Shown here piece by piece: positions 17,450 through 31,889 of a stretch of 47,482 nucleotides of DNA. Both the position numbers and the translations under genes were made by a program. The stretch is taken from NCBI GenBank assembly GCA_015233465.1, contig JADFXP010000011.1, positions 16,444 to 63,925 of the forward strand, written 5' to 3'. The notes under the pieces were generated by a model that made no database searches, was not told where the DNA came from, and was given only the letters and a program-made list of their open reading frames with translations. The number at the start of each line of letters is the position of its first letter. Within the stretch, counting starts at the first letter, position 1. Origin of the DNA: Candidatus Magnetominusculus dajiuhuensis. GTDB taxonomy: Bacteria > Nitrospirota > Thermodesulfovibrionia > Thermodesulfovibrionales > Magnetobacteriaceae.

Positions 17450-17793
17450 AGATACTAATAGTAGATGATGACCCACATATCAGAACATTATATAAGGAGG
17501 AACTTATAGATGAAGGATATGAGGTAGTTCTTGCAAACTCAGGCAAAGAGGCTCTTGAAATATTTGAAAAAGAGAACTTTGACCTTGTAACCTTAGACAT
17601 ACTAATGCCGGGAATGGACGGCATAGAAGTGCTAAGAAAAATGAAGGAAAAAAATCCAGCTCTGCCAGTAATTATGTCAACCGCATATGACTATAGAGAT
17701 GACTTCTCAGTCTGGGCATCAGAGGCATATGTAGTAAAATCAGCAGACCTTGATGAATTAAAAAGCACTATTAAGAAATTGTTGAATAAATGA
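17446..17793 (+). CDS. Single-domain response regulator (CheY-like)
   Basis: A 115-residue stand-alone receiver with an intact pocket: Asp7/Asp8 (ILIVDDDPH), phospho-acceptor Asp51 (LVTLDILMPGMDG), Thr in IMSTAYD and Lys in YVVKSADL. It overlaps the kinase gene by ATGA and has a good AAGGAGG, so the two form a cognate pair. With no output domain, it must act on a protein target or pass phosphate on. A palindromic repeat begins directly after its stop. Confidence 0.95.
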   Translation: MKILIVDDDPHIRTLYKEELIDEGYEVVLANSGKEALEIFEKENFDLVTLDILMPGMDGIEVLRKMKEKNPALPVIMSTAYDYRDDFSVWASEAYVVKSADLDELKSTIKKLLNK

Positions 17794-17798: not shown

Positions 17799-17910
17799 AA
17801 AAAGGCATCTTTTGAGGGCTCTGCCCTTGTTATCTACGGGCACCCGCAAAGGGTATTAATCTATGAAACTTTTTACAAAAAAGTTTCCAAAAAGGCCCTT
17901 TGAACCCATT
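17799..17910 (+). repeat. 3'-end palindromic repeat, copy A (extended form)
   Basis: Begins AAAAGGCAT 5 bases after the response regulator stop and ends TTTGAACCCATT. It holds the hairpin AGGGC-TCT-GCCCT, a small CGGG-CA-CCCG hairpin (17837-17846), and AAAGGG...CCCTTT arms whose loop is enlarged by an inserted hairpin GAAACTTTTT-ACA-AAAAAGTTTC (17865-17887). Its last bases provide AAAGG and the TTG that opens the rlmD-type gene. Sense orientation relative to the upstream gene. Confidence 0.85.
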
Positions 17911-19147
17911 AATAGAGCTTAAAGTCTTAGCCCCTGTCTACGGTGGGATGTGTTTGTCCCAAAGTACAGGGGTTGTTTTTATTAAAGGCGCTATACCCGG
18001 CGAAACCGTTGCTGCAAAGATAATAGAACGAAAAAAGGATTATTCTATTGCAGAAACTGTTGAAATAATTGATCCTTCCCCTGATAGAATTGAACCGAAA
18101 TGCAGGGTATTTAATATATGCGGAGGCTGTCATTATCAGCATATAAATTATACTCGGCAGATTGAATTAAAAAAAGAGATTCTAAAAGACTGTCTAAATA
18201 GAATAGGACATCTTGAAATATCCACTGATATTAACCCATTAATAGGTAATCAATGGGGCTATAGAACAAAGGTGCAGCTTAAATTATCACCCGAAGGACA
18301 GCTCGGCTTTTATAGAGAAGGCTCAAGAGATATTATACCTATTGACGAATGCCCTCTTGCAACTGAGCCAATAAATATAGCCATTACACGAATATCTAAT
18401 ATTGCCCCTCTTATTAAAAAGGTTAAAGAGATTTCTATATTATCAGGTAAAAATCTGATAGCCTTATTAAAAGGAGACAAGATAACAGAGTCTACCCTTG
18501 AGCAATTTATAAATATAGGTTTTGATGGAGTGAGTACAGATAATGGATCACTTAAAGGCGCAGAATTTTGTACATTTGAGGGTTCTACAGGATATAAATA
18601 TACTGTTTCTCCAAACGGTTTTTATCAAACAAATTGGGAATTAAATCAAAGACTAATTGAGAGGGTCTTAGGGGAAGCAGACCAAGCAAAAAATATCATA
18701 GATGTCTATGGCGGGGCTGGGAATTTTGCAATACCGCTTTCAAAATTTGCCTCAAAGGTATTGATAGTTGAAGAAAACCCTCATTCAAAGGCAGATGCCC
18801 AAAGAAACATCAAGATAAATAAATTAAAAAATATCAAATATATCTCCAAATCATTTGAAAAGACGAAAATGCCAGATCATTATGACCTAATGATACTAGA
18901 CCCGCCAAGACGAGGACTGACAACTGCTGCAGTAAATGCGGTCAAGAAAATCGCCCCAAATAAAATTATCTATATATCATGCAACCCAGCAACCTTTGCG
19001 CGGGATATACTTAAATTATCAGATGTCTATAAAATGAAATCCGTTGATTTGGTGGATATGTTTCCCAATACCTATCATTGTGAGGTGATTGGGATAATGG
19101 AAAAAGGCATCTACAAGGGCTCTGCCCTTGACCCGCAAAGGGTCTAA
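17900..19147 (+). CDS. rlmD: RlmD/RumA-type 23S rRNA (uracil-C5) methyltransferase
   Basis: SAM-dependent m5U methyltransferase with a TRAM domain (1-60), a [4Fe-4S] site (Cys68, Cys74, Cys77 in KCRVFNICGGC plus Cys in IDECPLA), a SAM-binding DVYGGAGNFAIPLS, DPPRRGL and the catalytic Cys of YISCNPATFARDI. The 415 residues fit. The start codon is TTG inside repeat copy A (AAAGG 4 nt upstream); no later Met precedes the TRAM core, so this start is needed. The last 16 residues (GIYKGSALDPQRV) are encoded by repeat copy B. Orthologues may modify U1939, U747 or both; the target is not decided here. Confidence 0.92.
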   Translation: MNPLIELKVLAPVYGGMCLSQSTGVVFIKGAIPGETVAAKIIERKKDYSIAETVEIIDPSPDRIEPKCRVFNICGGCHYQHINYTRQIELKKEILKDCLNRIGHLEISTDINPLIGNQWGYRTKVQLKLSPEGQLGFYREGSRDIIPIDECPLATEPINIAITRISNIAPLIKKVKEISILSGKNLIALLKGDKITESTLEQFINIGFDGVSTDNGSLKGAEFCTFEGSTGYKYTVSPNGFYQTNWELNQRLIERVLGEADQAKNIIDVYGGAGNFAIPLSKFASKVLIVEENPHSKADAQRNIKINKLKNIKYISKSFEKTKMPDHYDLMILDPPRRGLTTAAVNAVKKIAPNKIIYISCNPATFARDILKLSDVYKMKSVDLVDMFPNTYHCEVIGIMEKGIYKGSALDPQRV

Positions 19148-19164
19148 GACCCTTTGAACCCATT
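19101..19164 (+). repeat. 3'-end palindromic repeat, copy B (coding)
   Basis: Starts AAAAGGCAT inside the rlmD-type gene and ends TTTGAACCCATTA. Hairpins: AAGGGC-TCT-GCCCTT (19115-19129) and AAAGGGTC...GACCCTTT (19137-19155). Both stems differ from copies C, E and F by paired changes. It supplies the stop codon (TAA, in the second loop) and the last residues of the methyltransferase. Confidence 0.9.
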
Positions 19165-19205
19165 AAAAAAATATATAACTTGTCATCAATATGTCACATA
19201 AATTA

Positions 19206-19214
19206 TGCTATAAT
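19206..19214 (+). promoter_or_regulatory. Extended -10 promoter of the AAA_13 ATPase gene
   Basis: TGCTATAAT is a perfect extended -10 (TGnTATAAT), 29 bp before the ATG at 19244. A -35 is not clear, which extended -10 promoters tolerate. The leader carries AAAGGAA about 11 nt before the ATG. The gene therefore has its own promoter, separate from rlmD. Confidence 0.5.
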
Positions 19215-19243
19215 ATAAATATTATGAAAGGAATATTACCCAA

Positions 19244-21565
19244 ATGACAATAACTAAAATTTCAAAACTTAAAAACTTTGGAATTTTCCATGATTTTACA
19301 TGGCTAAGCGACCTTCCTGATTTCAAAAGATTTAATCTTATTTATGGATGGAATGGAAGCGGGAAAACAACTATTTCTCGTATTTTTACAAGTTGTGAAA
19401 AGAATAATATAGAATTTAAACAATATCCAATAAATGGAGAATTCGAAATAATAACTAGTGACGATAAATATATTAGTAATATGAATATTAATAGTTCTTT
19501 ACCAATTAAAGTTTTTAATAAAGATTTTATTGATGACAATATTTCTTTTGATCCTTCTAATCCATCAAACCCAATTGTCTATATCAGCGAAGAAGATATT
19601 CTAAGTAAAGACGAACTTGAGAAGTTGAAAAAGAAAAAAGAAAACCTTGAGAATGAATATAATACTGCTAATTACGCCCTAAATGAAAAAATAAAAACGA
19701 AAGATAATTTCCTAATATCTATTGGTTCAAAAATAAAAGAAAATGGAATAGATATAAATTATAATAAAAGAAAAGCAGAAAATAAAATTGATGAAATCGG
19801 AATTGATAATTTTCAAGACAAATTCCTTAAAGATGAAATTAAAAAAAATTATGAATTGAGAATTAAAGGAGAGACAAAAAAAACGATTAATACAATTGAT
19901 GGATTTCATATTAAATTTATATTTGATGGTGAAGAAATAACAAATTTTGACAAAATATCTTCGATCATACAACAATTACTTAATAAGAAAATCACCTCAG
20001 TAGATGAAAGATTAAAAAACGATCCAAAATTAAATGATTGGGTAAAACAAGGTTTTGATTTACTAAAAACTTACGGAATAAAAGATAAATGTTTATTTTG
20101 TGAGAAACCTCTTAATAATGATTTTTTTAACAATCTATCTAATCATTTTAACAAAGACTACCAAGATCTTCAAGATGCAATTTCATCTATTATTGAAGTA
20201 CTTAAAGGACTAAAAAAAGATGAATTTAATACTCAAGGTTATGATTTTTATCCTGAATTAAGTGGAGAAGTTAGTAAATTAAAAGATTCTATTAACATTG
20301 AAATCCGTCTACATAATCAATGGATTGAAAGTGCAATCTCAGCATTAAATGAAAAATATAAAAATCCTCTATCTGTAATTTCAAATCTTAACATACAATC
20401 CTATCCAAATACTTTCAATAATTATCTCGATAATTTTAATAAAAATATTAAAGAGCACAATTCGCAAGTCCTCAATAATGAACAACATGTTAAAAAGGCA
20501 AAAGAATCTTTAGAACTACATCACTTAGCTGAAGCTGTAAGAAACTATGATTATAAAAATATTCTATTTGAATTATCAAAAGCCGAAGAAAATGAATCTT
20601 CTCTACAAAATGAAATAAAAAAAAATAATGATAAGATTTTAGTACTTGAACAAAGAAATTCTAATGTTACAATAGCATTAAAAGATATTAATAATCATTT
20701 AGAGGCATTTTTGTGTACCAATGAAATTAAATTAAAGTTGGACGACAACAAAAAGGGATATATATTAACACGAAATAATAACCCTGCGAATAATCTTAGT
20801 GAAGGTGAAAAAACAGCTATCGCGTTTTCATATTTTATAGTTAAGGTAAAAGAAAGGAATTTTAAAATTGAAGATGGAATATTTTTTATTGATGACCCTA
20901 TTTCAAGTTTAGATTCAAATTTTATTTTTCATTGCTTTTCTTTAATTAAAGTGTATTTTAAAGATGCAGGTCAACTTTTTGTTTTTACTCATAATTTTGA
21001 ATTGTTTAATTTTATTAAATACTGGTTTAATAATAAAGATGGGTTTTATATGTTAGAAAATTATATGTTAGAAAATTCAAACATTAGGTCTTCAAAAATT
21101 AAAGAACTTGAAGATACTTTAAAAAAATTTAAGTCAGAATACCACTATTTATTTGTACGTCTTTATGAGTTTACACATAATACACGTCCCGTAGTATACG
21201 ATGATTTATACACTATTAGTAATATTGCTAGAAGATTTTTAGAAATGTATCTTACTTTTAAAATCCCAAGTACAGGTGATGTTTTAAGTAAAATTAAGGC
21301 TTTGAATATAAAAAAAGAAGATATTAAAGAAGAAGAAATAGAAACAGTTTATAAGCTAATTAATGAATATTCTCACGCATCAGATATATCACTAAAACAC
21401 CCAAATAAAGCAGAAATTCAAAAAGTTGTAACTATTTTATTGAAAATAGTAAAAATTTCCGATGAAAAACATTTTGAAACGATAGAAAGTGATTTTTTCC
21501 ATCAAGGTAAAAAAAACAACGCATTTCACAGTGCAAATGTATTTAATCGATATGCTACCCATTAA
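19244..21565 (+). CDS. AAA_13-family ATPase, candidate PrrC/RloC-like anticodon nuclease
   Basis: A 773-residue ABC/SMC-like ATPase. Walker A is GWNGSGKTT (35-43), signature NLSEGEKTAIAFS (about 516-528), Walker B GIFFIDDPISSLDS (about 543-556) and an H-loop FTHNFELF. The middle is coiled coil with a CLFC pair (Cys283, Cys286) that resembles a zinc hook. After the ATPase core, YHYLFVRLYEF, then Arg663-x3-Glu667 (IARRFLEMYLTFK) and INEYSH (His711), resemble the Arg-Glu-His triad proposed for PrrC and RloC tRNA anticodon nucleases. AT content is higher than in its neighbours and it stands alone with its own promoter, suggesting a horizontally acquired abortive-infection gene. Function is inferred; a different AAA_13 role is possible. 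Confidence 0.7.
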   Translation: MTITKISKLKNFGIFHDFTWLSDLPDFKRFNLIYGWNGSGKTTISRIFTSCEKNNIEFKQYPINGEFEIITSDDKYISNMNINSSLPIKVFNKDFIDDNISFDPSNPSNPIVYISEEDILSKDELEKLKKKKENLENEYNTANYALNEKIKTKDNFLISIGSKIKENGIDINYNKRKAENKIDEIGIDNFQDKFLKDEIKKNYELRIKGETKKTINTIDGFHIKFIFDGEEITNFDKISSIIQQLLNKKITSVDERLKNDPKLNDWVKQGFDLLKTYGIKDKCLFCEKPLNNDFFNNLSNHFNKDYQDLQDAISSIIEVLKGLKKDEFNTQGYDFYPELSGEVSKLKDSINIEIRLHNQWIESAISALNEKYKNPLSVISNLNIQSYPNTFNNYLDNFNKNIKEHNSQVLNNEQHVKKAKESLELHHLAEAVRNYDYKNILFELSKAEENESSLQNEIKKNNDKILVLEQRNSNVTIALKDINNHLEAFLCTNEIKLKLDDNKKGYILTRNNNPANNLSEGEKTAIAFSYFIVKVKERNFKIEDGIFFIDDPISSLDSNFIFHCFSLIKVYFKDAGQLFVFTHNFELFNFIKYWFNNKDGFYMLENYMLENSNIRSSKIKELEDTLKKFKSEYHYLFVRLYEFTHNTRPVVYDDLYTISNIARRFLEMYLTFKIPSTGDVLSKIKALNIKKEDIKEEEIETVYKLINEYSHASDISLKHPNKAEIQKVVTILLKIVKISDEKHFETIESDFFHQGKKNNAFHSANVFNRYATH

Positions 21566-21590
21566 ACTGACTTATTATTTTGAACTCTAA

Positions 21591-21690
21591 GCGGGTTCAA
21601 GTTTATAAGTTGAACCTAATAGTTCGTATTAATGAAAAACTGTCTCTAATTAGACGAAATCTAAGGTTCAAGTTACAAACTTGAACCCGC
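21591..21690. repeat. 100-bp inverted-repeat element
   Basis: Perfect 14-bp terminal inverted repeats GCGGGTTCAAGTTT (21591-21604) and AAACTTGAACCCGC (21677-21690). Each end is itself palindromic: the right one forms GGTTCAAGTT-ACA-AACTTGAACC (21665-21687). It lies between the convergent ATPase and atpI genes. It has no coding capacity; it may be a MITE-like or REP-type element and also act as a bidirectional terminator. The GGTTCAA core echoes the TTTGAACCC end of the other repeat family. Confidence 0.75.
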
Positions 21691-21728
21691 CACATCTGGC
21701 TGGGAATATCCCCCTAAGAAATTCACCC

Positions 21729-22076
21729 TCACCCCTTCCTCGCATAACTCCACCCCTCTTTAAATATAACCAAAAATGAAATCGTAAGCCCAACCAACAG
21801 TCCAAGTCCGTTTACTGTCCTGCTTGCCATCAGTATAAACAAAACAGCCAAAACCATTAATAGACGCAGCGTATTTAATATAATCAACCTTGTCTTTATT
21901 GCCTGTCCTTGTGTTAATCCAGTCAGTCCTTTGCTTAGACCTCTAAAATTTAGAAGCGCGAGGATTCCGCCGATAAATATGCTGAATGGGATTTCAATTG
22001 GGAACCAGAATGACGAAATAATTGAAGCGGCTAATAATATTATTACAGCTTGAGTATATATTTTTTTATTATTCAT
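21729..22076 (-). CDS. atpI: AtpI-like ATP synthase accessory protein
   Basis: A 115-residue protein with four hydrophobic helices: AVIILLAASIISSFWF, SIFIGGILALLNFRG, LRLLMVLAVLFILMA and LGLLVGLTISFLVIF. The ALLNFRG motif between helices two and three is characteristic of the ATP-synthase-I family (subunit I), linked to c-ring assembly or Mg2+ supply. The ATG lies right after repeat copy C with no ribosome-binding site. It follows atpZ, as usual, but atpB and the F0 genes do not follow; the next gene is convergent. The separation from the synthase operon is noteworthy. Confidence 0.78.
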   Translation of the reverse strand: MNNKKIYTQAVIILLAASIISSFWFPIEIPFSIFIGGILALLNFRGLSKGLTGLTQGQAIKTRLIILNTLRLLMVLAVLFILMASRTVNGLGLLVGLTISFLVIFKEGWSYARKG

Positions 22077-22082
22077 AATTTA

Positions 22083-22150
22083 TGGGTTCAAAGGGACGAG
22101 TCCCTTTGCGGGAGTTTGAGGGCAGAGCCCTCATGACAATGCCTTCATAT
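22083..22150 (-). repeat. 3'-end palindromic repeat, copy C
   Basis: Read on the minus strand it starts at the atpZ stop (ATATGAAGGCATTG) and ends TTTGAACCCA. Hairpins GAGGGC-TCT-GCCCTC (22118-22132) and AAAGGGA-CTCG-TCCCTTT (22090-22107). Almost identical to copies E and F. It separates atpZ from atpI. Confidence 0.9.
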
Positions 22151-22369
22151 TTTTTTAACTGTTCTAAATAGTTCGACAAATCCGGCTATAATTCCGAGAG
22201 TCAAAAAAATCAGCATTAATATTGGGGCAGTGCCGAATAGTTTATCTAATCCATAGCCCATAGCGAGTCCTACAAAGGTTGAAATAACTATCTGAATACC
22301 TACTTGACTTGCTGAGAGGAGCTGTTTTGTAATTGACGGCTCTGGCGGCTGCTCTTTATTCATAAGCAT
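22145..22369 (-). CDS. atpZ: AtpZ-like F0F1 ATPase accessory protein
   Basis: A 74-residue protein with two membrane helices: GIQIVISTFVGLAMGYGLDK and ILMLIFLTLGIIAGFVELF, the AtpZ/AtpI pattern (GxxxGxxLDxxxGTxP). Partner of AtpI in ATP synthase assembly or divalent-cation supply. The start is either the ATG at 22369 or the one two codons later (22363); neither has a ribosome-binding site. A REP-like hairpin separates it from the NrfD gene upstream. Repeat copy C begins at its stop codon. Confidence 0.82.
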   Translation of the reverse strand: MLMNKEQPPEPSITKQLLSASQVGIQIVISTFVGLAMGYGLDKLFGTAPILMLIFLTLGIIAGFVELFRTVKKI

Positions 22370-22382
22370 TATACAATAAAAT

Positions 22383-22404
22383 AGGGCAGGTTTTAGCCTG
22401 CCCT
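22383..22404. repeat. REP-like GGGCAGG hairpin
   Basis: AGGGCAGG, loop TTTTAG, CCTGCCCT. Same core as the hairpin after galT (14940-14960). It lies 19 bp after the NrfD stop (minus strand) and 14 bp before the atpZ start, so it may attenuate or terminate read-through. Confidence 0.55.
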
Positions 22405-22423
22405 ACCATGTTAATTCTATATT

Positions 22424-23698
22424 TCAATGAGCCTTCTCGTATAGATCATCTGAACGTCTGCCCGGATGCTCCTTAGGCGGATGTAATTTCTCATGCACTT
22501 CTGGCGGGAGAAGCGATCCAGAGTATATTGGAATGGCAAATTTTACAAATAATGTAAATACCATAGCGCCGCATGCCCAGATACCAAGTCCTACAAACTT
22601 CTCAACTAATGATGGCGAATATTCATAGATCTCGCCTAATACTGATGGGATAAAGCCTGGAATTATCAAACCCATGCCTTTCTCTATATATACGCCTGTT
22701 ATCACCATTACGCAGGCAATATTTAATGTTAAATAACTTTGCCGCGTCTTTGGTATCAGGAAGAGAAAAAACGCTCCCACATTACAGAAAAACGCTAGTC
22801 GCAGCCAAAATACAAGATTATGATGGCCATGCAGTCCAAAGTACATATACTCCATAGGCGCTAAATGTATGCTATGTGAATAAAATTCCTTAAATACCTC
22901 AGCAGCAAATAAGAATAGATTTACTGCCATAGCATATGCTATTAATTCAGCTATCTTAAAGATTGCAGTATCGCTTATCTGAATTGTAGAAACCTTTCGA
23001 ATTAACTGAAATATTAATAACATCAATGCAGGGCCTGAACACAAGGCTGACGCTATAAATCTTGGCGCTAATATTGAGGCATTCCAAAATGGCCTTGATG
23101 ATAGTCCATTATACAAAAATGCAGTCACTGTATGAATACTTATTGCCCATGGTATTGAGATTAATACTACCGGAAATAAAAATGCCATCTTATATTCCTT
23201 GCCTTGAGATAGTCTATGCAAGATATATAACACTGCTGTGAGATTTAAAAATAAATAACCGTTTAAAACTAATACGTCCCATGCCAGTAGTGAAGACGGG
23301 AAATTCATCTTACCGATTAATGGCAATATATGCCAGCCTAACAAAGGTCTGCCCATATCTGCCGTAACAAACAGCAGACACATAACAATTGCCGAGATTG
23401 CAAGTATCTCGCCAAATAATACTATCTCCTTTATTGGTTTAAAATGATAAAGATAAGCTGGTATTACAAGCAATACCGCTGCTGCTGCAACACCTACTAA
23501 AAATGTAAAATTTGATATATAAAATCCCCATGACACCGGGTCTCTCATTGCTGTAACTATTAAACCCCTGTCAAACTGATGCGCATAATTTAATGCGCCA
23601 TTTATAATAAGCGAAACTAATATGAGTAACCACAAATAATATAACTTGCCTCCTTTAGCAAGGCTTTTTAATGCAATAAAGAAATTCTTTGAAATCAT
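22424..23698 (-). CDS. NrfD/PsrC-type quinone-interacting membrane subunit
   Basis: A 424-residue polytopic protein (about ten helices) of the NrfD family, which exchanges electrons with the menaquinone pool for a periplasmic Fe-S/cytochrome partner. Helices include LYYLWLLILVSLIINGALNY, FLVGVAAAAVLLVIPAYLY and FLFLIPKTRQ. A longer frame opens at 23743, but its first 15 residues come from a decayed repeat; GGAGGAG stands directly before the ATG at 23698, which is the true start. It is third in the cytochrome-FeS-NrfD operon. The C-terminus (LHPPKEHPGRRSDDLYEKAH) is cytoplasmic and basic. Confidence 0.9.
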   Translation of the reverse strand: MISKNFFIALKSLAKGGKLYYLWLLILVSLIINGALNYAHQFDRGLIVTAMRDPVSWGFYISNFTFLVGVAAAAVLLVIPAYLYHFKPIKEIVLFGEILAISAIVMCLLFVTADMGRPLLGWHILPLIGKMNFPSSLLAWDVLVLNGYLFLNLTAVLYILHRLSQGKEYKMAFLFPVVLISIPWAISIHTVTAFLYNGLSSRPFWNASILAPRFIASALCSGPALMLLIFQLIRKVSTIQISDTAIFKIAELIAYAMAVNLFLFAAEVFKEFYSHSIHLAPMEYMYFGLHGHHNLVFWLRLAFFCNVGAFFLFLIPKTRQSYLTLNIACVMVITGVYIEKGMGLIIPGFIPSVLGEIYEYSPSLVEKFVGLGIWACGAMVFTLFVKFAIPIYSGSLLPPEVHEKLHPPKEHPGRRSDDLYEKAH

Positions 23699-23700
23699 CT

Positions 23701-23762
23701 CTCCTCCAAGGGGTCTGAGACCCTGCAATGGGTCTAAAACCAATCTATGGTCTGGGACCGGT
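23701..23762 (-). repeat. 3'-end palindromic repeat, decayed copy (H)
   Basis: Directly after the Fe-S gene stop. On the minus strand it shows TTGCAGGGTCT-C-AGACCCC near its end and weaker GGTCC/AGACC symmetry before it, matching the second hairpin of copies B and D (GCAAAGGGTCT...AGACCC). The first hairpin is not recognisable, so membership is less certain. Confidence 0.45.
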
Positions 23763-24704
23763 CTATAAACTAAAGAAATAATAAAATTTAGGTCTTGTAT
23801 TTAAATCTTCTTTGAGTCGAAATACCCTTTTCTTATCAATACAATAACGTATCTCACTGTCTTTGTCTAGTAGATTACCGAATTTTCTTGCTCCAACAGG
23901 ACAAATCTCAACACAGGCAGGATATTTACCTTTTCGAGTCCTCTGTATACAAAATGTGCATTTCTCAACACATCCTTTAATCCTTGGACGATTCCCAAGA
24001 TAATGCGTATCAGGATTTATCTCCTCTTTAGGGATATTAGGCTTTGCCCAATTAAAATGTCTCGCGCCATAAGGACAAGATGCCATGCAATAACGGCAGC
24101 CTATGCACCAATTATAATCTACAACAACTATTCCATCAGGCTCTTTCCACGTTGCCTTTGTCGGACATACCTTAGCACAAGGAGAGTTTTCACATTGCTG
24201 ACATGAAACAGGCATGTAGAAATAACCCTCTTCTGGAACTTCATCTGGATTATAGTATATCTCAGATTCCTCAAGGTCACTTACCCATTTTTCACCCTTT
24301 TTAAAACGCAATACACTAATCCATTGAATCTGCGGGTCATGCCTTGATTGATTATTTTCTTTTACACATGCGTAAACACACCGCCTGCAGCCAATACACC
24401 TTGAAAGATCAAGCCCATAACCAAATAATGTATTTGGAATAGGTTTTTCTGTTCCGACCTTAATATCTACTCCATAATCCGCCTTATAATCCTTTTCAAG
24501 ACGGGCAATCGTAGATTGAAGCTCATCCTGCGACATCTCTTTAAAATGTTTCTGAAAAAATTCGTCCCATATAGACGCATCTGCGGTGCCAAAAGGGACC
24601 GCAATTGATGAAATTCCAATAGCTGCGCCCTTTAAAAAACCTCTTCTGCTTAATTCACCGTCACCGCTCTTTAAGTTCTTTAATTCGTCATTATTACTTG
24701 GCAT
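23763..24704 (-). CDS. Tat-exported four-cluster ferredoxin subunit (HybA/NrfC/PsrB-like)
   Basis: Periplasmic electron-transfer subunit that links the NrfD quinone site to the cytochrome. A twin-arginine signal ELSRRGFLKGAAIGI precedes four cysteine sets: CIGCRRCVYAC; CQQCENSPCAKVCP; CIGCRYCMASCPYG; and KCTFC...CVEICPVGARKFG, i.e. four [4Fe-4S] clusters. The frame opens at 24716, but GAGGA lies 5 nt before the ATG at 24704 (MPSNNDELKN), which I prefer. Between the cytochrome and NrfD genes, with 24 bp and 64 bp gaps. Resembles the Fe-S subunits of Cbc4/NrfCD-type menaquinol complexes. Confidence 0.92.
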   Translation of the reverse strand: MPSNNDELKNLKSGDGELSRRGFLKGAAIGISSIAVPFGTADASIWDEFFQKHFKEMSQDELQSTIARLEKDYKADYGVDIKVGTEKPIPNTLFGYGLDLSRCIGCRRCVYACVKENNQSRHDPQIQWISVLRFKKGEKWVSDLEESEIYYNPDEVPEEGYFYMPVSCQQCENSPCAKVCPTKATWKEPDGIVVVDYNWCIGCRYCMASCPYGARHFNWAKPNIPKEEINPDTHYLGNRPRIKGCVEKCTFCIQRTRKGKYPACVEICPVGARKFGNLLDKDSEIRYCIDKKRVFRLKEDLNTRPKFYYFFSL

Positions 24705-24728
24705 TTTAGTCCTCATATATTATTTTCA

Positions 24729-25298: not shown

Positions 25299-25364
25299 TT
25301 CTCATTACCCCATATTTCTTAAATGTATTTATTTAAACCATTTCTAAATACTGGTGCAATTAAA

Positions 25365-25395
25365 TTGTAAATAATTGTAAATTATCCTTTATAAT
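25365..25395 (+). promoter_or_regulatory. Possible tilS promoter with a 10-bp tandem repeat
   Basis: AATTGTAAAT occurs twice in perfect tandem (25363-25372 and 25373-25382), giving TTGTAA hexamers, and TATAAT follows at 25390-25395. The first TTGTAA is 19 nt from the -10 and the second 9 nt, so the -35 is suboptimal. The leader to the tilS ATG would be about 90 nt. Confidence 0.35.
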
Positions 25396-25491
25396 AATGT
25401 CTACCATAAAAAAATATTTTTTTATTTTTTAATAATGATTAATAATAGATAAATTTAGTCCTCTAATCTACAAAATATTAAGGTAATTTAT

Positions 25492-26901
25492 ATGGATAAC
25501 TATGAATTTCAATTTATAAAGAAGGTCTTTAATTTTGCAAAAAAATATAAGATGTTTGCTAAAGGTCAGAAGATACTTGTTGGTCTTTCAGGCGGTGCAG
25601 ATTCGGTTTGTCTTTTAAACGTTCTGTTAACATTTGATTTAAACATCTCTGCGCTATATGTTGACCACGGTCTAAGACCGACTCAAACCCCAAGCGAAAT
25701 TGAATTCTGTTCTAATCTATGCAGCAAACTCAAGGTTGATTTTATGGTTGAATCTGTTGATGTATATCAATACCAAAAACTCCATAATATAGGAATCGGC
25801 GCTAGCGCACGGACAAAAAGATATGAGGCATTAGAGGCTGTTGCTCATAAAATTGGCACAGATAAAATAGCGCTTGGACATAACAAAGATGACCAATGCG
25901 AGACCTTTTTGATTAATATGCTAAGGGGGTCAGGGATGTCCGGGCTTTGCGGAATTCCCCCAACACGCAATAGGATAATTAGACCGATTTTATGCGTTAA
26001 TCGCTCTGAAATCAGGTCTTTTCTTGAGACAAGGCGCATCAATTATATTACAGACCCATCAAATCTAACTAATAAATATCTTAGAAATAATATCAGAAGT
26101 GAACTTCTCCCTTTATTAAAAAAATATAACCCATCCATAATGCAAACCATTTATAACACAACTGAAATCCTTAGCGTTGAGGATAAATTTCTTGAATCTG
26201 TTACGTCTCAATTGATGACAGAGATAGTTATAAATTGGAAAGATGGAATTATTGAGCTTGATATAAAAAAATTAACAATAATTGATCTGGCTTTATTAAG
26301 AAGGATCATTCGTCAAGCCATTAGTCATTTTAATTTATCGCTTGGACTTATTCATATTGACAATATTATTAATTTAATCAAAGACTTAAACACTGGAGGC
26401 TGTCTTAACCTGCCAGATGACTTGATTGTAATTAAGGGATATGACCGCCTTATTATAAAAAATGTAAATTTTGTAAATTCACCAATAATTGGATGTGAGC
26501 TAAATATCCCAGGCGTTACCATTATTGATAAAACAGGTTCATCAATCACCGCATCATTTACAGACCTGCCTCAAACCCAATACGGTAAAGATGAGACATA
26601 TCTTGATTTTGATAAAATTATTGGTAAAACACTAAAAATAAGGACAAGAAATAAGGGTGATTTCTTCTACCCTCAAGGATTTGGAAAAAAGAAAAAGCTG
26701 CAAGATTTCTTCATTGATGAAAAAATTCCAAGAGAGATTAGAGATACCATACCAATCATTTATCTAAATAACGAAATAGTCTGGATCGCAGGCCACAGAG
26801 CAGACGAACGATTTCATGCAAATATGAAAACAATCAATATTTTAAAATTAGTCATGAGGACTCTGCCCATTTTATCTACGGGTTCCCGCAAAGGGTCTTG
26901 A
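25492..26901 (+). CDS. tilS: tRNA(Ile) lysidine synthetase
   Basis: Converts C34 of the CAU-anticodon tRNA(Ile) to lysidine, allowing AUA decoding, which is fitting in this AT-rich genome. The PP-loop is LVGLSGGADSVCLL (Ser33-Ser38), followed by YVDHGLRP, the GHNKDDQCET motif and LLPLLKKYNP. Residues about 385-455 are the TilS C-terminal domain (KIRTRNKGDFF, KKKKLQDFFIDEKIPR, VWIAGHRADERF). The full-length form has 469 residues. AAGG lies 8 nt before the ATG. The last residues (about MRTLPILSTGSRKGS) are encoded by repeat copy D, replacing the native end. Confidence 0.96.
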   Translation: MDNYEFQFIKKVFNFAKKYKMFAKGQKILVGLSGGADSVCLLNVLLTFDLNISALYVDHGLRPTQTPSEIEFCSNLCSKLKVDFMVESVDVYQYQKLHNIGIGASARTKRYEALEAVAHKIGTDKIALGHNKDDQCETFLINMLRGSGMSGLCGIPPTRNRIIRPILCVNRSEIRSFLETRRINYITDPSNLTNKYLRNNIRSELLPLLKKYNPSIMQTIYNTTEILSVEDKFLESVTSQLMTEIVINWKDGIIELDIKKLTIIDLALLRRIIRQAISHFNLSLGLIHIDNIINLIKDLNTGGCLNLPDDLIVIKGYDRLIIKNVNFVNSPIIGCELNIPGVTIIDKTGSSITASFTDLPQTQYGKDETYLDFDKIIGKTLKIRTRNKGDFFYPQGFGKKKKLQDFFIDEKIPREIRDTIPIIYLNNEIVWIAGHRADERFHANMKTINILKLVMRTLPILSTGSRKGS

Positions 26902-26915
26902 CCCTTTGAACCCAT
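26853..26915 (+). repeat. 3'-end palindromic repeat, copy D (coding)
   Basis: Lies across the 3' end of tilS and ends TTTGAACCCATTA. It shares TTATCTACGGG with copy A and contains CGGG-TT-CCCG (26879-26888) and AAAGGGTC-TT-GACCCTTT (26890-26907). The first hairpin is disrupted (GAGGACTCTGCCCA). It supplies the TGA stop within the second hairpin. Read in a different frame from copies B and F. Confidence 0.85.
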
Positions 26916-26933
26916 TATTTTTCATTTTATTTC

Positions 26934-26962
26934 TTGACTTTAATTACCAATCAGATTATATT
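26934..26962 (+). promoter_or_regulatory. Sigma70-type promoter for the pseudo-receiver/hemerythrin pair
   Basis: TTGACT (26934-26939), 17-nt spacer, TATATT (26957-26962). The leader of about 55 nt ends in AAAGGAG before the ATG at 27025. Confidence 0.65.
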
Positions 26963-27024
26963 AGATAAGCAAGGTCTTGATTACTTTATTGATTTAATTT
27001 GAGAAAGTTTTAAAGGAGCTATTT

Positions 27025-27396
27025 ATGTCAAAGATGGTTGTAATTATTTGTGTAAAATCTGAGTTGGAAAGCAATATTAATAATGCCTTAGAGGGAGTCA
27101 GCAGTTCTATTTACATAAATTCTTATTCAACATTACCTGAAGTAGAGGATAATATTGAGAATATTAATGGCGTAAATATCTTGATTATAGATTCGGCAAA
27201 GACAGGACAGTCAACAATAGAATTTACTCAAAAGATTAAAAAAATTAATCCAAAGACTAAAATTATTCTCATAATTGATGCTAATGCACCAAAGGTAAAC
27301 GTGATTGACACTATGATCGATGGCATAATAAATGGAGTGCTTTTGGTACCATTTACGAAAAAGCAAATGGAAGAATATATTAATTTCTTCTTATAA
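27025..27396 (+). CDS. Degenerate stand-alone receiver (pseudo-receiver)
   Basis: A 123-residue CheY-fold protein. It keeps Asp56 (VNILIIDSAKTG) and the surrounding hydrophobic strands, but the acidic pair of the first strand is gone (MVVIICVKSEL) and the conserved Lys before PF is Val (VLLVPFTKK). Mg2+-dependent phosphorylation is therefore doubtful; it may be a constitutive or ligand-controlled adaptor. AAAGGAG 6 nt before the ATG. The hemerythrin gene follows 36 bp later in the same orientation. Confidence 0.72.
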   Translation: MSKMVVIICVKSELESNINNALEGVSSSIYINSYSTLPEVEDNIENINGVNILIIDSAKTGQSTIEFTQKIKKINPKTKIILIIDANAPKVNVIDTMIDGIINGVLLVPFTKKQMEEYINFFL

Positions 27397-27432
27397 TCTA
27401 TTAATCCAATTTTCAAAAGGAGGGTTTAAAAA

Positions 27433-27837
27433 ATGCCATTTATGACTTTTAATGATACTATGAAGGTAAATATAGAAGAAATTGATGATCATCATAGAAC
27501 ATTAGTCAGCCTGATTAATGAACTATATGATGCAGTAAGCGCTGGCAGCGGGGAAGAAACTATAGCTAAAGTACTTCCTGAGTTGATTAATTATACAATG
27601 TATCATTTTTTCGCTGAAGAAGATTACATGGTTAAATATTCATATCCATTATACAATGAACAAAAAATGGAACATGCTAAATTGATTGAGCAGACCTTTG
27701 AGCTATATGACCGCTTTAATGCAGGGGATAAGATAAGTAATGATGTCCTTGATTTTTTAAAAAATTGGCTCAATGACCATATTCTTGGTCTTGACGTTGA
27801 TCTTGGGCGTTATTTACAAGGTATAGGGGTTGTGTAA
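27433..27837 (+). CDS. Bacteriohemerythrin
   Basis: Single-domain O2-binding di-iron protein of 134 residues. Iron ligands visible are His21 (IDDHHRTL), His58 and Glu62 (HFFAE), His81 (KMEHAKL), His116 and Asp121 (HILGLD). The family HxxxH motif reads QxxxH here (Gln77), so one of the five expected histidines is replaced; the site may be altered. AAAGGAGGG precedes the ATG. It pairs with the pseudo-receiver, hinting at an oxygen-response module. Convergent with pgi; repeat copy E fills the gap. Confidence 0.88.
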   Translation: MPFMTFNDTMKVNIEEIDDHHRTLVSLINELYDAVSAGSGEETIAKVLPELINYTMYHFFAEEDYMVKYSYPLYNEQKMEHAKLIEQTFELYDRFNAGDKISNDVLDFLKNWLNDHILGLDVDLGRYLQGIGVV

Positions 27838-27841
27838 TTAA

Positions 27842-27908
27842 TGGGTTCAAAGGGACGAGTCCCTTTGCGGGTGTTTGAGGGCAGAGCCCTCAAGACAATG
27901 CCTTCATA
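27842..27908 (-). repeat. 3'-end palindromic repeat, copy E
   Basis: On the minus strand it starts at the pgi stop (ATATGAAGGCATTG) and ends TTTGAACCCAT. Same hairpins as copy C: GAGGGC-TCT-GCCCTC and AAAGGGA-CTCG-TCCCTTT. The opening bases, including the stop codon, are the same as at atpZ. It is oriented with pgi, not with the convergent hemerythrin gene. Confidence 0.9.
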
Positions 27909-29244
27909 TCTTCCAGCAGCTATTCCTATTTTTCAATTCATTAATTAAGTCTTTATCTTCTTTATTTCCGTGTTTTTCAAGCATTTCGCGTATCATAGTT
28001 TTACCTGTTTCGACCCATGGCTGATTGAATGGGTTTATCCCAAACAGAAAACCTGTAACAACTGTGGCAATCTCAAGGAATAAAAACAACTGGCCTATAT
28101 GATAAGCATCTATTGTAGGTATTAAGATAGACATATTAGGTTTAGAGTCCTTAGTAAGGATATATTCTGTAGATTCTTGCCCTGCGATACAAATATCAGC
28201 CATACTTTGACCAATGAGATAATCAAAATAATCAATCTCCTCAAATGTCTTAGGTATTATAAAGCAGTCGCCGTAGTCTTTTATCTTGATAAAGATTACC
28301 ACTTTATCCTCTGGGCCTTCCATCCATAGCTGGAGCTGTGAATGTTGATCTTTTGTGCCGATGGAAGGATATGGGGTGAGGCCTGAGCCGAGCTTTCCGA
28401 GACTTTCTGCCCAGAGTTGGCAGAACCATTCTGAGAGAGATTTTAAACCGTCTGCATATGGCATTAAGACATTTATCTTGCGGTTTTCTTCTGTACACAT
28501 TATAAAAAGAAGAGCAGAAAATAAATACACAGGATTTTCCCAAAGTTCTGGTCTTGTGCAGCGTTCTAAGATATCGCGTGCACCTTGTAATAACTCAAGA
28601 CTGTCTATACCTGCAACCTCAGAAAGCAAGAGTCCGGAAGCACTCAATACTGAAAAACGTCCAACTACCTTTTCAGGGATTTCAAGGGTTTTAAATCCAT
28701 ATGTCTTAACAAGTTGATGAGTTGTGCAGTTTATGCTGCATGTGAGGATGATACGTTTTGCAGCCTCAACCTTGCCTAATTCTCTTGACATCTTTTCCCA
28801 AAGTATCATGAATGCAGCAACGGTTTCAGAGGTATTTCCAGATTTGCTGACAATATTTATTGTGGTCTTTGAGAGGTCTATGTTATTCATTATATTTTTT
28901 AAGATTATAGGATCAGCATTATCAAATATAAATATACGCGGCTTATTTCTGACATTGTGCATCTGGCTTAAGGCATTTAATATTGCGCGAGGGCCCATAG
29001 CAGCGCCTCCCATGCCAAGAAAGAGAAAATTCTCTGAGGTTTCTCTAATCTCTTTAGCCATAACCTTGATTTGCTCAATATCTTGACTAACAAGGTCTAA
29101 GAAGGCTAGTTCATTCCATTTTCTATCTTTTATCTGTTGGTGAGCCTCATTGATACGTTCCCTTAATGCCTCTATCTGATTGATGGAAACACCTTTTTCT
29201 CCCAAGACATCAGCCATCATATTTGCAAAATATACTTCAAGCAT
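27904..29244 (-). CDS. pgi: Glucose-6-phosphate isomerase
   Basis: Interconverts glucose 6-phosphate and fructose 6-phosphate. The 446 residues match the short bacterial PGI form. Signatures: FLFLGMGGAAMGPRAIL, the phosphate-binding IVSKSGNTSETVA, and GTKDQHSQLQLWMEGP with the active-site His/Gln region. AAGGTG lies 8 nt before the ATG. The leader is unusual: a tandem duplication of the ribosome-binding region plus two hairpins (see 29250-29365). Its 3' end merges into repeat copy E. Confidence 0.93.
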   Translation of the reverse strand: MLEVYFANMMADVLGEKGVSINQIEALRERINEAHQQIKDRKWNELAFLDLVSQDIEQIKVMAKEIRETSENFLFLGMGGAAMGPRAILNALSQMHNVRNKPRIFIFDNADPIILKNIMNNIDLSKTTINIVSKSGNTSETVAAFMILWEKMSRELGKVEAAKRIILTCSINCTTHQLVKTYGFKTLEIPEKVVGRFSVLSASGLLLSEVAGIDSLELLQGARDILERCTRPELWENPVYLFSALLFIMCTEENRKINVLMPYADGLKSLSEWFCQLWAESLGKLGSGLTPYPSIGTKDQHSQLQLWMEGPEDKVVIFIKIKDYGDCFIIPKTFEEIDYFDYLIGQSMADICIAGQESTEYILTKDSKPNMSILIPTIDAYHIGQLFLFLEIATVVTGFLFGINPFNQPWVETGKTMIREMLEKHGNKEDKDLINELKNRNSCWKI

Positions 29245-29249
29245 ATAAT

Positions 29250-29365
29250 TTTCACCTTAATGCCTTGCGAGGTTTGGGGGCGCAGCTCCCAACGTTTCAC
29301 CTTAATGCCTTGCGAATTAGTGGGTCTAAACCCCTTTGGGAGTGCAGCTCCCAAGCCCTCCACAG
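29250..29365 (-). repeat. Tandemly duplicated leader with two GGGAG hairpins before pgi
   Basis: A 21-bp perfect direct repeat (29250-29270 and 29295-29315, 45-bp period) ends each unit and contains the ribosome-binding site AAGGTG on the minus strand. Each unit also has a hairpin: TTGGGAG-TGCAG-CTCCCAA (29336-29354) and a G-rich variant (29274-29292). It lies between crp-like and pgi genes. It may be another palindromic repeat family or a translational control region. Confidence 0.6.
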
Positions 29366-29387
29366 GCTGCATTTACAAAATATTAGA

Positions 29388-30068
29388 TCAAACTAAAGTC
29401 AAATTATCAATCATTTGTTTTAGTCTTTCTTTTTGCAAGATATGAATTCTTACTCCAGTTGTCTCAATTAATCCATCATTTCTGAGTTTAGTTATAGCTC
29501 GAGACACTGAAACACGCGTTGTGCCTGTCATATCTGCGATTTCTTGATGTGTTAAATGTATCTTTACAGTGGTTTTTTCTGAATATTTTAATATCAAGGC
29601 AGCTACTCTGGTTGTAACATCCATAAAAATCATATCTTCAAACAACTTTTCCATTTCAATACGTTTATTTATGGTCATTTTAAGAAAATTTAATGCAACA
29701 TCTGGCCTTGTACCCATAAATAATAAAAAGGCATCTCGATCTATTATACTTCCAGAGGAATCCATAGTAGCTTCAGCAATACTTGAACGGGTCGTTTCAG
29801 AGGATAAACATAATTCTCCAAAGAATTCCTTTGGTTCTACTAGGTCAAGTGTAAGTTTTCTACCGTCAGGTGCGAGTCTTGAGAGCTTAATCCTGCCCTC
29901 TTTGAGGTAATAAAGCGTTTTCGCAGGATCACCTTGCATAAAAAGTGTTTTATCCTTATTGATTTTAAATGGCGAAGAAGCCTTTTTTAACAGAGTTATC
30001 TCTTTTTCTGTCAAATTTGTAAATATATTTAAACCATCTATACTCCAAAAATTATCCATATCCCTCAT
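29388..30068 (-). CDS. Crp/Fnr-family transcription regulator
   Basis: A 226-residue regulator: cyclic-nucleotide-type beta-barrel (about 15-130; PAKTLYYLKEGRIKLSRLAPDGR, then EPKEFFGELCL), dimer helix, and Crp-type winged helix (LTHQEIADMTGTTRVSVSRAITKLRNDG split across residues about 170-200). There are no N-terminal cysteines, so no FNR-type Fe-S cluster. The cAMP-binding arginine region is not clearly conserved (TTRSSIAEA is similar to RxS), so the ligand is open. The first ATG (30068) lacks a ribosome-binding site; a second is three codons on. Confidence 0.9.
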   Translation of the reverse strand: MRDMDNFWSIDGLNIFTNLTEKEITLLKKASSPFKINKDKTLFMQGDPAKTLYYLKEGRIKLSRLAPDGRKLTLDLVEPKEFFGELCLSSETTRSSIAEATMDSSGSIIDRDAFLLFMGTRPDVALNFLKMTINKRIEMEKLFEDMIFMDVTTRVAALILKYSEKTTVKIHLTHQEIADMTGTTRVSVSRAITKLRNDGLIETTGVRIHILQKERLKQMIDNLTLV

Positions 30069-30110
30069 AAATATTAATATTTCTTGAAATGCCCATTTAC
30101 TGCCTCTAGC

Positions 30111-30139
30111 ATATTACACTGAATAGAAAACTAAGTCAA
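30111..30139 (-). promoter_or_regulatory. Promoter of the Crp/Fnr-type gene
   Basis: On the minus strand: TTGACT (30134-30139), 17-nt spacer, TAATAT (30111-30116). A leader of about 35 nt precedes the ATG. It is back-to-back with the promoter of the ligase gene (30162-30190). Confidence 0.6.
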
Positions 30140-30161
30140 GAAATTTCAGTTATTGAATGAT

Positions 30162-30190
30162 TTGATAATTTTTTCAAAATCAGTTATGAT
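30162..30190 (+). promoter_or_regulatory. Promoter of the acyl-CoA ligase gene, predicted near-leaderless
   Basis: TTGATA (30162-30167), 17-nt spacer, TATGAT (30185-30190). The ATG lies 9 nt further on with no ribosome-binding site, so the mRNA leader would be about 0-3 nt. Confidence 0.55.
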
Positions 30191-30199
30191 AATCGTAAT

Positions 30200-31882
30200 A
30201 TGCTAAATTTCCAAACAAACTCACAACTTTTATATAAAGAGGCTATAAATTCCCCTAAAAAGGTTCGTTTTATGGTCTCTGACAATGATGGCGGTTTCAA
30301 GGCTGTCACTTGGGGTGAGTTTCTTGAAAATACCATTAAAATTGCCTTATATCTGGACAGTATTATGCCCTTAACAGATAAGAAATTTGTAGTATTTGCT
30401 AAAACAAGGGTGGAATGGGCTTATTTTGGTCTTGCTATTGAGGCATGCAGAGGGGTATTTGTTCCAGTTTTTCATACAAGCCCAGAATCACTTTTAATTT
30501 ATATAACAAATCACTCTGACGCTGATTTTATAATTACCGAAAATACGCTCCTTGCAGAGATTTTTATGAGCATTAGACATATGCCTAAGGTCAAAAAAAT
30601 CCTTATTATGGACAAAAAAAATGATTTTACTAATGTCGAAACCTTTACTCCCATGGTCTATATAGAAGAGATTTATAAAATAGGAAGCAGACTGATGGAG
30701 AAAAACCCTGACAGATTTCCACAGCTGTTAAGTAATATTTCAATAAATGACACTGCTACCATACTTTATACATCAGGCACAACTGGAGTCCCAAAGGGCG
30801 TAGTTCTTACCCATAAAAACCTATTTGTGAATTCCTCTGACTGGATAGATGTCCTTGGTCCACTGATACCTAACGAAAAAATAGACCTGCTTTGGCTTCC
30901 AACATCTCATATATTTGGATGGGGTGAGCTTGGGCTTGGTCATGTGCTTGGATTTAAAACTTATTTTACAACCCCTCTTGAAGTCCTTGGACTTATGCCT
31001 ATTATCAAACCAACCATATTTATAAGCGTTCCCGTATACTGGGAAAAACTCTATCTCATGGCTGTCGCTTCCTCTAATATAGAAAACAAACAATTTGATA
31101 AATTAATTGAATTAACAGGAGGCAGACTTAAATTTTGTCTATCAGGAGGGGCTGGATTAAAACGTGAAGTAAAAGAATTTTACTATAAGGCAGGATTATT
31201 GATAATTGAAGGTTATGGACTCACTGAATGCTCGCCAACCCTAACCATGAACAGAGGCGATGACTTTGACTTTGATACTGTAGGCAAGGCATTTCCAAGT
31301 GTAACGCTTAAACTTGCGCAAGATAATGAGATACTTGCTAAGGGTGAAAATATATTTAACGGATACTATAAAGACAAAGAATCTTCAACTGAGGCATTTG
31401 ATAAAAATGGATGGTTTAAGACTGGCGACCTCGGAACATTTACTGACAAAGAGTTTTTAAAGATAATCGGGCGAAAAAAAGAGATAATCGTTACCTCTGG
31501 AGGCAAAAATATCTCCCCTGCCCTCATTGAATCAAAATTTAAAGATTCCCCATTGATTGAACATATAGTTTTATACGGAAACGAACGTAAATACCTTACC
31601 GCACTCATTACTTTAAATAAAACAGCAGCCCAGAATCTATCGGATATAGCTATTAAAACTGTAGTACAAGAAAATATTGACAAGGTAAATAAAGACCTTC
31701 AATCATTTGAGACCATTAAGAAATTCTATATTCATGATAAAAGCCTTACAGTAAAAGACGGATTCCTTACTCCTGCACTAAAACTCCGCAGAAATAACGT
31801 TTATGAGGCATTTAAAGATATTCTTGATAAACTTTATGAGGGCTCTGCCCTCAAACTCCCGCAAAGGGACTCGTCCCTTTGA
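30200..31882 (+). CDS. AMP-dependent synthetase/ligase (long-chain acyl-CoA synthetase-like)
   Basis: ANL-superfamily enzyme that adenylates a carboxylic acid and loads it on CoA. Motifs: TILYTSGTTGVPKGVVLTHK (P-loop-like A3), GYGLTECSPTLTMN (A5), GWFKTGDLGTF (A7) and GRKKEIIVTSGGKNISPALIE (A8-A10 region). The 560 residues resemble FACS of the FAA1/FadD15 type. The substrate is probably a fatty acid. The last 14 residues (EGSALKLPQRDSSL) come from repeat copy F, so the native C-terminus has been replaced; the catalytic Lys of A10 would be near residue 540 (LKLRRNN). Confidence 0.9.
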   Translation: MLNFQTNSQLLYKEAINSPKKVRFMVSDNDGGFKAVTWGEFLENTIKIALYLDSIMPLTDKKFVVFAKTRVEWAYFGLAIEACRGVFVPVFHTSPESLLIYITNHSDADFIITENTLLAEIFMSIRHMPKVKKILIMDKKNDFTNVETFTPMVYIEEIYKIGSRLMEKNPDRFPQLLSNISINDTATILYTSGTTGVPKGVVLTHKNLFVNSSDWIDVLGPLIPNEKIDLLWLPTSHIFGWGELGLGHVLGFKTYFTTPLEVLGLMPIIKPTIFISVPVYWEKLYLMAVASSNIENKQFDKLIELTGGRLKFCLSGGAGLKREVKEFYYKAGLLIIEGYGLTECSPTLTMNRGDDFDFDTVGKAFPSVTLKLAQDNEILAKGENIFNGYYKDKESSTEAFDKNGWFKTGDLGTFTDKEFLKIIGRKKEIIVTSGGKNISPALIESKFKDSPLIEHIVLYGNERKYLTALITLNKTAAQNLSDIAIKTVVQENIDKVNKDLQSFETIKKFYIHDKSLTVKDGFLTPALKLRRNNVYEAFKDILDKLYEGSALKLPQRDSSL

Positions 31883-31889
31883 ACCCATT
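31838..31889 (+). repeat. 3'-end palindromic repeat, copy F (coding)
   Basis: Forms the 3' end of the ligase gene, with the TGA within the TTTGAACCC end. Hairpins GAGGGC-TCT-GCCCTC and AAAGGGA-CTCG-TCCCTTT, identical to copies C and E. It lies at a convergent junction with hddC. Confidence 0.9.

Follow-up and report, generated by a model that had tools for sequence, protein, structure and literature searches.

Two-hairpin palindromic repeats in Candidatus Magnetominusculus dajiuhuensis: a high-copy, mostly intergenic family that is likely to be mobile

Candidatus Magnetominusculus dajiuhuensis (Nitrospirota, Magnetobacteriaceae) is represented by a draft genome of 3.13 Mb (75 contigs, completeness 92.5%; G000, the home genome below). 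Among named proteins, those of Candidatus Magnetominusculus and Magnetomonas are nearest to the acyl-CoA synthetase of the window, followed by Magnetoovum and "Nitrospirae bacterium" entries, which most likely puts the host in the same family of Nitrospirota. The window analysed here is a stretch of 47,482 nucleotides of this draft (GenBank assembly GCA_015233465.1, contig JADFXP010000011.1, positions 16,444 to 63,925; G000:C2:16444-63925), and it contains six copies, A to F, of a palindromic repeat. Each copy, called an arm in what follows, is made up of two hairpins and a short tail. These arms belong to a high-copy, mostly intergenic family, present as single arms or as inverted pairs, and the evidence leans somewhat towards a non-autonomous and likely mobile element, moved in trans by an enzyme that is probably not a repetitive extragenic palindrome (REP)-associated tyrosine transposase (RAYT).

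All six copies reported in the initial annotation were recovered with a profile of the arm (threshold E <= 0.01), with E values of 2.5e-10 to 3e-20; these values refer to the 474 kb of sequence searched (about 15% of the genome), which consist of the flanks of copies, the window and the loci of Y1 transposase genes. Arm A (17799..17911, plus strand; profile match 17807-17911, E 2.5e-10), supported by its fold, lies 3' of the stop codon of gene 17446-17793 (+) and has hairpin 1 followed by a hairpin 2 with a second palindrome, AAACTTTTTACAAAAAAGTTT, in its loop. Arm B (19101..19165, plus strand; profile match 19111-19165, E 5.8e-13), identified by sequence, gives gene 17900-19147 (+) its last codons and its stop, a TAA in the loop of hairpin 2, the encoded tail being KGIYKGSALDPQRV. 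Arm C (22080..22150, minus strand; profile match 22080-22139, E 4.9e-19) is found between two minus-strand genes. Arm D (26849..26917, plus strand; E 1.8e-13) is a variant with an ATCTACGGG linker and spans the stop codon of gene 25492-26901 (+). The last two arms lie between convergent genes: arm E (27839..27908, minus strand; profile match 27839-27898, E 3.9e-19) between 27433-27837 (+) and 27904-29244 (-), and arm F (31828..31890, plus strand; E 3e-20) between 30200-31882 (+) and 31888-32586 (-). In arm F, hairpin 1 (31838..31852, plus strand) is defined by its sequence, GAGGGC-TCT-GCCCTC, and hairpin 2 (31862..31881, plus strand), CAAAGGGA-CTCG-TCCCTTTG followed by AACCCATTA, by its sequence, its fold and the stem variants found in 218 arms. 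Arms C, E and F are 95–100% alike, as had been noticed earlier, and all six copies end in TTTGAACCCAT, which, with at most one mismatch, has nine matches in the window against 1.56 expected, a number reached in none of 100 shuffles. The window had no matches above the gathering thresholds of Rfam families. A decayed seventh copy had been proposed at 23701-23762, between two minus-strand genes; the arm profile missed it at the threshold used, and this stretch is a chain of GGTCT...AGACC palindromes, similar ones being nested in some arms.

The plan of the arm is hairpin 1 (GGGC-NCY-GCCC in its commonest forms), a linker mostly ending in CCCGC, hairpin 2 and a GA-N-CCC tail. A script found at least six of the eight positions of hairpin 2 to be paired in 218 of 229 arms from the home genome, with perfect pairing in 168; 53 distinct stems were counted, part of which are alternative or shifted palindromes chosen by the script. 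Covariation, first proposed for both hairpins from the window copies, was confirmed, and in hairpin 2 it was seen at all eight positions: changes on both sides that keep the pairing occur in 8–35 distinct stems per position, and pair-breaking changes in 1–14. A 48-nt core is repeated unchanged 15 times among 117 parsed arms. Further palindromes are present inside the loops of either hairpin (17860-17897; loci L020 and L028). The inner palindrome in the hairpin 2 loop at 17860-17897 and that in the hairpin 1 loop near position 1450 of L028 are similar, both being of the AAACTTTTT...AAAAGTTT type, as though hairpin tips receive palindrome insertions.

The repeat is abundant in the home genome. 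A covariance-model search, of the kind suggested with the initial annotation, was run with a model built from 25 copies and gave at least 150 copies (the best 150 of 2151 candidates, with E values of 3.6e-20 to 6.3e-12). Genome-wide, there are 127 exact cores, GCAAAGGG-N-CCCTTTGAACCCAT, split 64 to 63 between the strands, and 153 when the final AT is left off; the reversed pattern gave no match in either case. The arm profile found 229 non-overlapping arms in the 474 kb, which, for stretches selected for the copies they hold, is no total for the genome. The unit of 52–112 bp originally described holds good as an arm; in 40 places, however, it is one arm of a longer composite consisting of an arm, an AT-rich spacer and an inverted arm. 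Among the 46 pairs of neighbouring arms less than 160 bp apart, 40 are in plus-minus and one in minus-plus arrangement, the other five being same-strand pairs with overlapping matches. The gaps in the composites measure 9–123 nt and are mostly near 10, 31–35 or 52–56 nt. Flanks and positions were compared for 146 of the best 150 copies, those whose flanks were fetched: a flank is shared, over 50 nt, with another copy on the 3' side in 60 and on the 5' side in two of them, because the spacer and the second, inverted arm lie downstream. No partner was found for 149 of the 229 arms. The analysis supports the proposal, made at the start, of a dispersed palindrome of the REP and bacterial interspersed mosaic element (BIME) type.

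The end of gene 30200-31882 illustrates the effect that an arm can have on a protein. Its C-terminal EGSALKLPQRDSSL and its TGA stop are read from arm F. Eleven orthologues from the family were fetched (57–62% identical), and in the seven whose end was caught by a motif, the protein stops one to four residues past the LY (or MY) that precedes the element-derived tail; two homologues, 79% and 73% identical, stop one and two residues past this LY/MY. Since the proteins of relatives end where the tail begins, arm F has replaced the stop codon and added the tail. Genes 17900-19147 and 25492-26901 likewise end within arms.

The distribution of the repeat outside the home genome depends on which part of it is sought. 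The exact core was absent from all 39 relatives searched, and a core with C, G or T in place of one A of the tail was absent from all 395 genomes of a sample of the phylum, the home genome included. A scan of named genomes for core variants gave matches in Acidocella facilis, a Rhodospirillales metagenome-assembled genome (MAG) and an Anaeromassilibacillus MAG; in the Rhodospirillales MAG, the core is preceded by hairpin 1 and the linker, as in the home genome. The pattern GGGCNCYGCCCN{1,9}CCCGC, covering hairpin 1 and the linker, was then counted with its reversal as a control, giving 165 matches against 0 in the home genome, 9 against 0 in the Rhodospirillales MAG, 6 against 2 in Acidocella and 1 against 0 in the Anaeromassilibacillus MAG. 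In the order of the home genome, 33 of 176 genomes had matches. Ten of the 18 family relatives were among them, seven with higher counts (G005, 48; G003, 14; G015, 13; G018, 10; G016, 9; G012, 7; G017, 4) and three with one or two, the remaining eight having none and all controls being zero. Outside the family, there were at most four matches per genome in this order, with controls often equal in size. In the order of the Rhodospirillales MAG, 85 of 150 genomes were matched, mostly near the control level; copy number is high in G441 (180 matches against 9 in the control), G470 (86 against 0), G525 (74 against 8) and G551 (31 against 5), and several further genomes had 12–20 matches against 1–9. 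An element confined to one genus is ruled out by these matches elsewhere.

Sites outside the home genome were gathered without regard to hairpin 2, except that two of the sites from G402 originally came from a hairpin 2 pattern, and the sequence behind them was examined for a stem. This test covered 21 of the 48 matches in G005, 26 of the 49 in six genomes of genus g4 (G016, with nine matches, left out), seven of the nine in G402, five of the six in Acidocella and 10–11 sites each of G470, G525 and G441 (86, 74 and 180 matches), without the single Anaeromassilibacillus site (L182). A perfect stem of at least six pairs directly behind CCCGC was present at 80 of these 91 sites: 15/21 in G005, 25/26 in genus g4, 6/7 in G402, 4/5 in Acidocella, 9/10 in G470, 10/11 in G525 and 11/11 in G441. 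By chance, such a stem arises in 0.5–2.3% of shuffles, and it was found at 1 of 23 single matches of low-count genomes (28 loci, only sites at the centre of the locus being counted, without L217 and L218, whose genomes have 12 and 13 matches). Behind the stem, 73 of the 80 have a tail G(0-2)-A-N(0-2)-CC, which is found further downstream in 4 of 80. Genus g4 and the home genome have TGAGGGC...GCCCTCAAACTCCCGC in common, including letters outside the search pattern. The hairpin 2 stems of genus g4 differ (AAGGAGGG/CCCTCCTT, AAGGAGGC/GCCTCCTT, GAGGGGGC/GCCCCCTC); G005 has kept the stem of the home genome, CAAAGGGAC/GTCCCTTTG, with a different tail, and Rhodospirillales genomes have yet other stems, such as ACAGGGCC/GGCCCTGT and AAAGGATC/GATCCTTT. 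Close pairs face each other in 14 of 14 cases in G470 and in 16 of 17 in G525 (among 64 of its 74 matches). In many arms of G005 (L289-L307, genus g6), another CCCGC is followed by a third hairpin; several hairpin 2 copies of this genome are interrupted by a palindrome of the GGTGCGGAGGCGCACC kind. In Acidocella (L193, L196), the stretch separating the arm from its inverted partner contains a further long palindrome.

Single examples were also found beyond these genomes: one in a Gluconacetobacter plasmid, behind a gene for a WGR-domain protein, in which the hairpin 1 and linker pattern has no match; one, limited to hairpin 1 and the linker, in a microvirus record from pig gut; and one in an IMG/VR contig (L340). 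BLAST searches of plasmids and phages gave weak matches to hairpin 1 and the linker in one plasmid and three phage records, and no match with a Rhodospirillales copy. At the Anaeromassilibacillus site, an 8-bp stem (AGCCTTTT/AAAAGGCT) lies directly behind CCCGC, as judged by eye, which hints at the same plan in Clostridia. A wider reading, more tentative than that of a mobile family in these bacteria and somewhat doubtful as it stands, would be a hitherto undescribed, RAYT-independent superfamily of mobile palindromes in Nitrospirota, Pseudomonadota and some viral contigs, in which hairpin 1 and CCCGC would be the constant address of a widely shared enzyme and hairpin 2 a swappable cassette that many lineages have rewritten with its pairing kept.

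Of the competing explanations, that of ordinary REPs or REP doublets (REPINs) moved by a RAYT, a Y1 tyrosine transposase, has the most in its favour, and it nevertheless seems unlikely. REPINs were described by Bertels and Rainey (2011; PMC3116915), and in the plan set out there, as here, inverted palindromic arms surround a spacer, are intergenic and reach high copy numbers, with single arms present too. The home genome has five Y1_Tnp matches, four over the cut-off, and of the five one is of IS200 type and one RAYT-like (74 bits with the RAYT model, under its cut-off of 80); there is an arm within 0.75 kb of three of the five genes, on one side only. The search for a RAYT suggested with the initial annotation thus yielded Y1 genes close to arms in this genome; in four of the five Rhodospirillales genomes with copies that were searched, however, it yielded no Y1 gene. 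PF01797 has no match in G470, G441, G525 and G551, which have 86, 180, 74 and 31 matches to hairpin 1 and the linker. Nor are Y1 genes and copies associated in the family, where PF01797 is over the cut-off in five of nine genomes with copies and in four of seven without (16 of the 18 relatives searched). The sides of the Y1 loci L031, L034 and L035 carry palindromes of other kinds, and no cognate RAYT flanked by arms, as expected of a REPIN, was found. A RAYT as mobiliser was therefore not supported in the home genome, the five Rhodospirillales genomes or the 16 relatives; the absence of Y1 genes from high-copy genomes, the lack of association in the family and the other flanking palindromes suggest that the mobiliser is probably a different enzyme. 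At L034 (1375-2008), a broken Y1 transposase gene lies between 44-nt palindromic repeats (GCGGGAGCAGGTGTCCC...) that are 98% complementary, a locus resembling a separate RAYT-REP pair within the same genome, and at L031 (1298-1950), an IS200-type transposase lies between 51-nt inverted palindromic repeats unlike the arms. At 21591-21690 in the window, directly behind the large open reading frame (ORF) 19244-21565, GCGGGTTCAAGTTTATAAGTTGAACC... and a mate that is 86% complementary form an inverted repeat of 37 nt, a further type of palindrome, which ends in GAACCCGC.

The arms also differ from REPINs in having two hairpins each, in the lack of a Y1 gene in four high-copy genomes and in the conservation of the doublets, which are better conserved than singles in the published account (PMC3116915) and are not so here (mean profile scores of 60.2 for 40 arms in doublets and 61.1 for 106 single arms). 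Di Nocera and colleagues (2013) divided REPs into GTAG-tagged and CGTC-tagged classes, which, as described in the text of that article, share with the present family short intergenic palindromes, dimers, compensated stem variants and a wide range of phyla, the CGTC class, like the arms, being without a known transposase (PMC3733652). Those REPs have a single hairpin and a terminal tag, the CGTC type with one stem of 8–9 bp starting with AT, whereas each arm here has two hairpins, a linker that mostly ends in CCCGC and a GA-N-CCC tail; the main text of the article does not contain the word Nitrospira (PMC3733652). The GTAG tag was found in none of the 151 arms of the home genome that could be parsed (of 229) and at none of the 80 sites elsewhere on the 5' side, with two of 80 on the other side. 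A CGTC, TGTC or CCTC tag lies within 14 nt of hairpin 1 in 19 of the 151 arms and on the other side in two; elsewhere, a CGTC-type tag is present within 12 nt of hairpin 1 in three of 80 cases and on the other side in nine, so that it is not constant. The family is similar to REPINs and to miniature inverted-repeat transposable elements (MITEs) and, by these tag tests, lies outside the two tagged REP classes.

RIME1 of Rhizobium, Bru-RS1 and Bru-RS2 and the intergenic repeats of Caulobacter are palindromic elements of about 100 bp in alphaproteobacteria; likened to the arms by description only, they could follow the same plan and are the main threat to the novelty of the family. RU-1 goes by the name of enterobacterial repetitive intergenic consensus (ERIC), and the Rickettsia palindromic elements (RPE) are mobile repeats too; both, by description, likewise replace stop codons and add C-terminal peptides. 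Bru-RS has been described as an intergenic palindromic element of Brucella (PMC2267715), and the enterobacterial RU elements as mobile repeats that add C-terminal tails, RU-1 being a single unit of 127 bp (PMC2759123). A search of titles and abstract openings by keyword and core word found no description of the present repeat.

A further alternative would need no dedicated enzyme: palindromes of this kind could grow and multiply through template switching at replication, or through selection for the site of a DNA-binding protein. Hairpins nested in loops (17860-17897; L020, L028; copies in G005), the wholesale differences in hairpin 2 between lineages and the failure to find an enzyme are all compatible with such an origin. 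Identical cores of 44–48 nt at several places and spacers shared together with the inverted partner, however, call for the copying of a defined unit, and this explanation is accordingly rather improbable.

The position of the copies relative to genes bears on a third possibility. Of the window copies, four are in sense orientation between same-strand genes; the other two (27842 and 31838) have convergent neighbours, so that each is sense to one of them whichever way it points. The rule of fixed sense polarity drawn from these copies proved to be a small-sample effect: when the 146 copies were placed with a purpose-made codon-usage gene caller, 42 were tandem-sense, 47 tandem-antisense (binomial p = 0.67), 39 convergent and eight divergent, three lay in a gene and seven at the edge of a stretch. 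With a cruder gene caller, the numbers were 43 sense and 42 antisense, eight copies reaching partly into a gene, and with confident gene pairs alone they were 23 and 32. The copies fetched from sister genera show no sense bias either (four sense and eight antisense in g4, four and four in G005), so that the sense rule is limited to the six window copies and does not extend to the repeat family. Insertion solely behind genes in sense orientation is not supported either, since antisense copies are as frequent in tandem gaps. Some copies lie immediately before a start codon: many of the antisense copies come close, with the outer end of their hairpin 1, to the start of the gene that follows. Some sense copies span a stop codon. 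The scatter that would speak against placement by rule was thus found for strand, both orientations being used, and not for gene borders: three of 146 copies are inside genes, though 80% of the fetched sequence is coding. Between confident gene pairs, copies are present in 21 of 26 convergent, 56 of 119 tandem and four of 11 divergent gaps (p = 0.018 for convergent against divergent), proportions biased towards copies because the stretches were picked around them. A run of five T within 9 nt of hairpin 2 was found in none of the 139 parsed copies (of 146), in agreement with the earlier view that this is not an ordinary intrinsic terminator; within 30 nt it was present in 24, copy D among them by eye. 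An RNA element selected at gene ends, as an mRNA 3'-end stabiliser or terminator-like attenuator, has in its favour that four window arms fold stably (z-scores of -2.3 to -4.7, with -22.3 kcal/mol and the lowest z for arm F), that the stems change in pairs and that copies are in excess in convergent gaps, but it is very doubtful and the 3'-end role is not supported, given that the argument from polarity fails with sense and antisense copies equal in tandem gaps, that T-runs are lacking, that presence is patchy between sister genera and that a DNA strand folds into the same hairpins, which makes the covariation no pointer to RNA.

The copy number, the identical cores, the defined composite, the patchy presence in sister genera and the replaced stop codon together suggest a non-autonomous mobile element, and mobility of the repeat family is likely on this comparative evidence. 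An enzyme acting in trans would spread the arms or composites, and it may recognise hairpin 1 and the linker, because this part is common letter for letter to the home genome and a sister genus with a different hairpin 2. The composite would be the unit of copying and single arms its halves, and the position at gene borders would owe more to the persistence of insertions that do no harm than to a function in the mRNA. Several observations weigh against this reading of the family. Single arms are not shown to be decayed halves, their scores being no worse than those of arms in composites. Four facing arm pairs are 1–2 kb apart, and inspection by eye of the ORFs in two of them showed no transposase of an autonomous parent. 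Direct repeats of 2–6 bp, such as the target-site duplication of a DDE-type MITE would leave, are without clear excess around 71 single arms and 39 composites, whose ends lack sharp definition; a precise empty site was likewise not seen. The RAYT-like gene of the home genome has a decayed arm about 180 bp behind it, and at two further Y1 matches of this genome the distance to an arm is 420 and 741 bp. The completeness of the Rhodospirillales genomes is unstated, so that an enzyme may be missed in them. That GGGC-NCY-GCCC and CCCGC are constant outside the home genome is in part a product of the search, which used that pattern to find the sites, and the weight therefore rests on genus g4.

REPs are among the commonest repeats of bacteria, and the published accounts consulted here propose a mobiliser chiefly for those linked to a RAYT (PMC3116915; PMC3733652). 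The present family offers high-copy genomes without a detected Y1 gene, sister genera of which some have copies and others none, and a common module beside a hairpin that varies between lineages. It thereby makes two questions testable: which enzyme moves REP-like repeats that have no RAYT, and whether such repeats cross between phyla.

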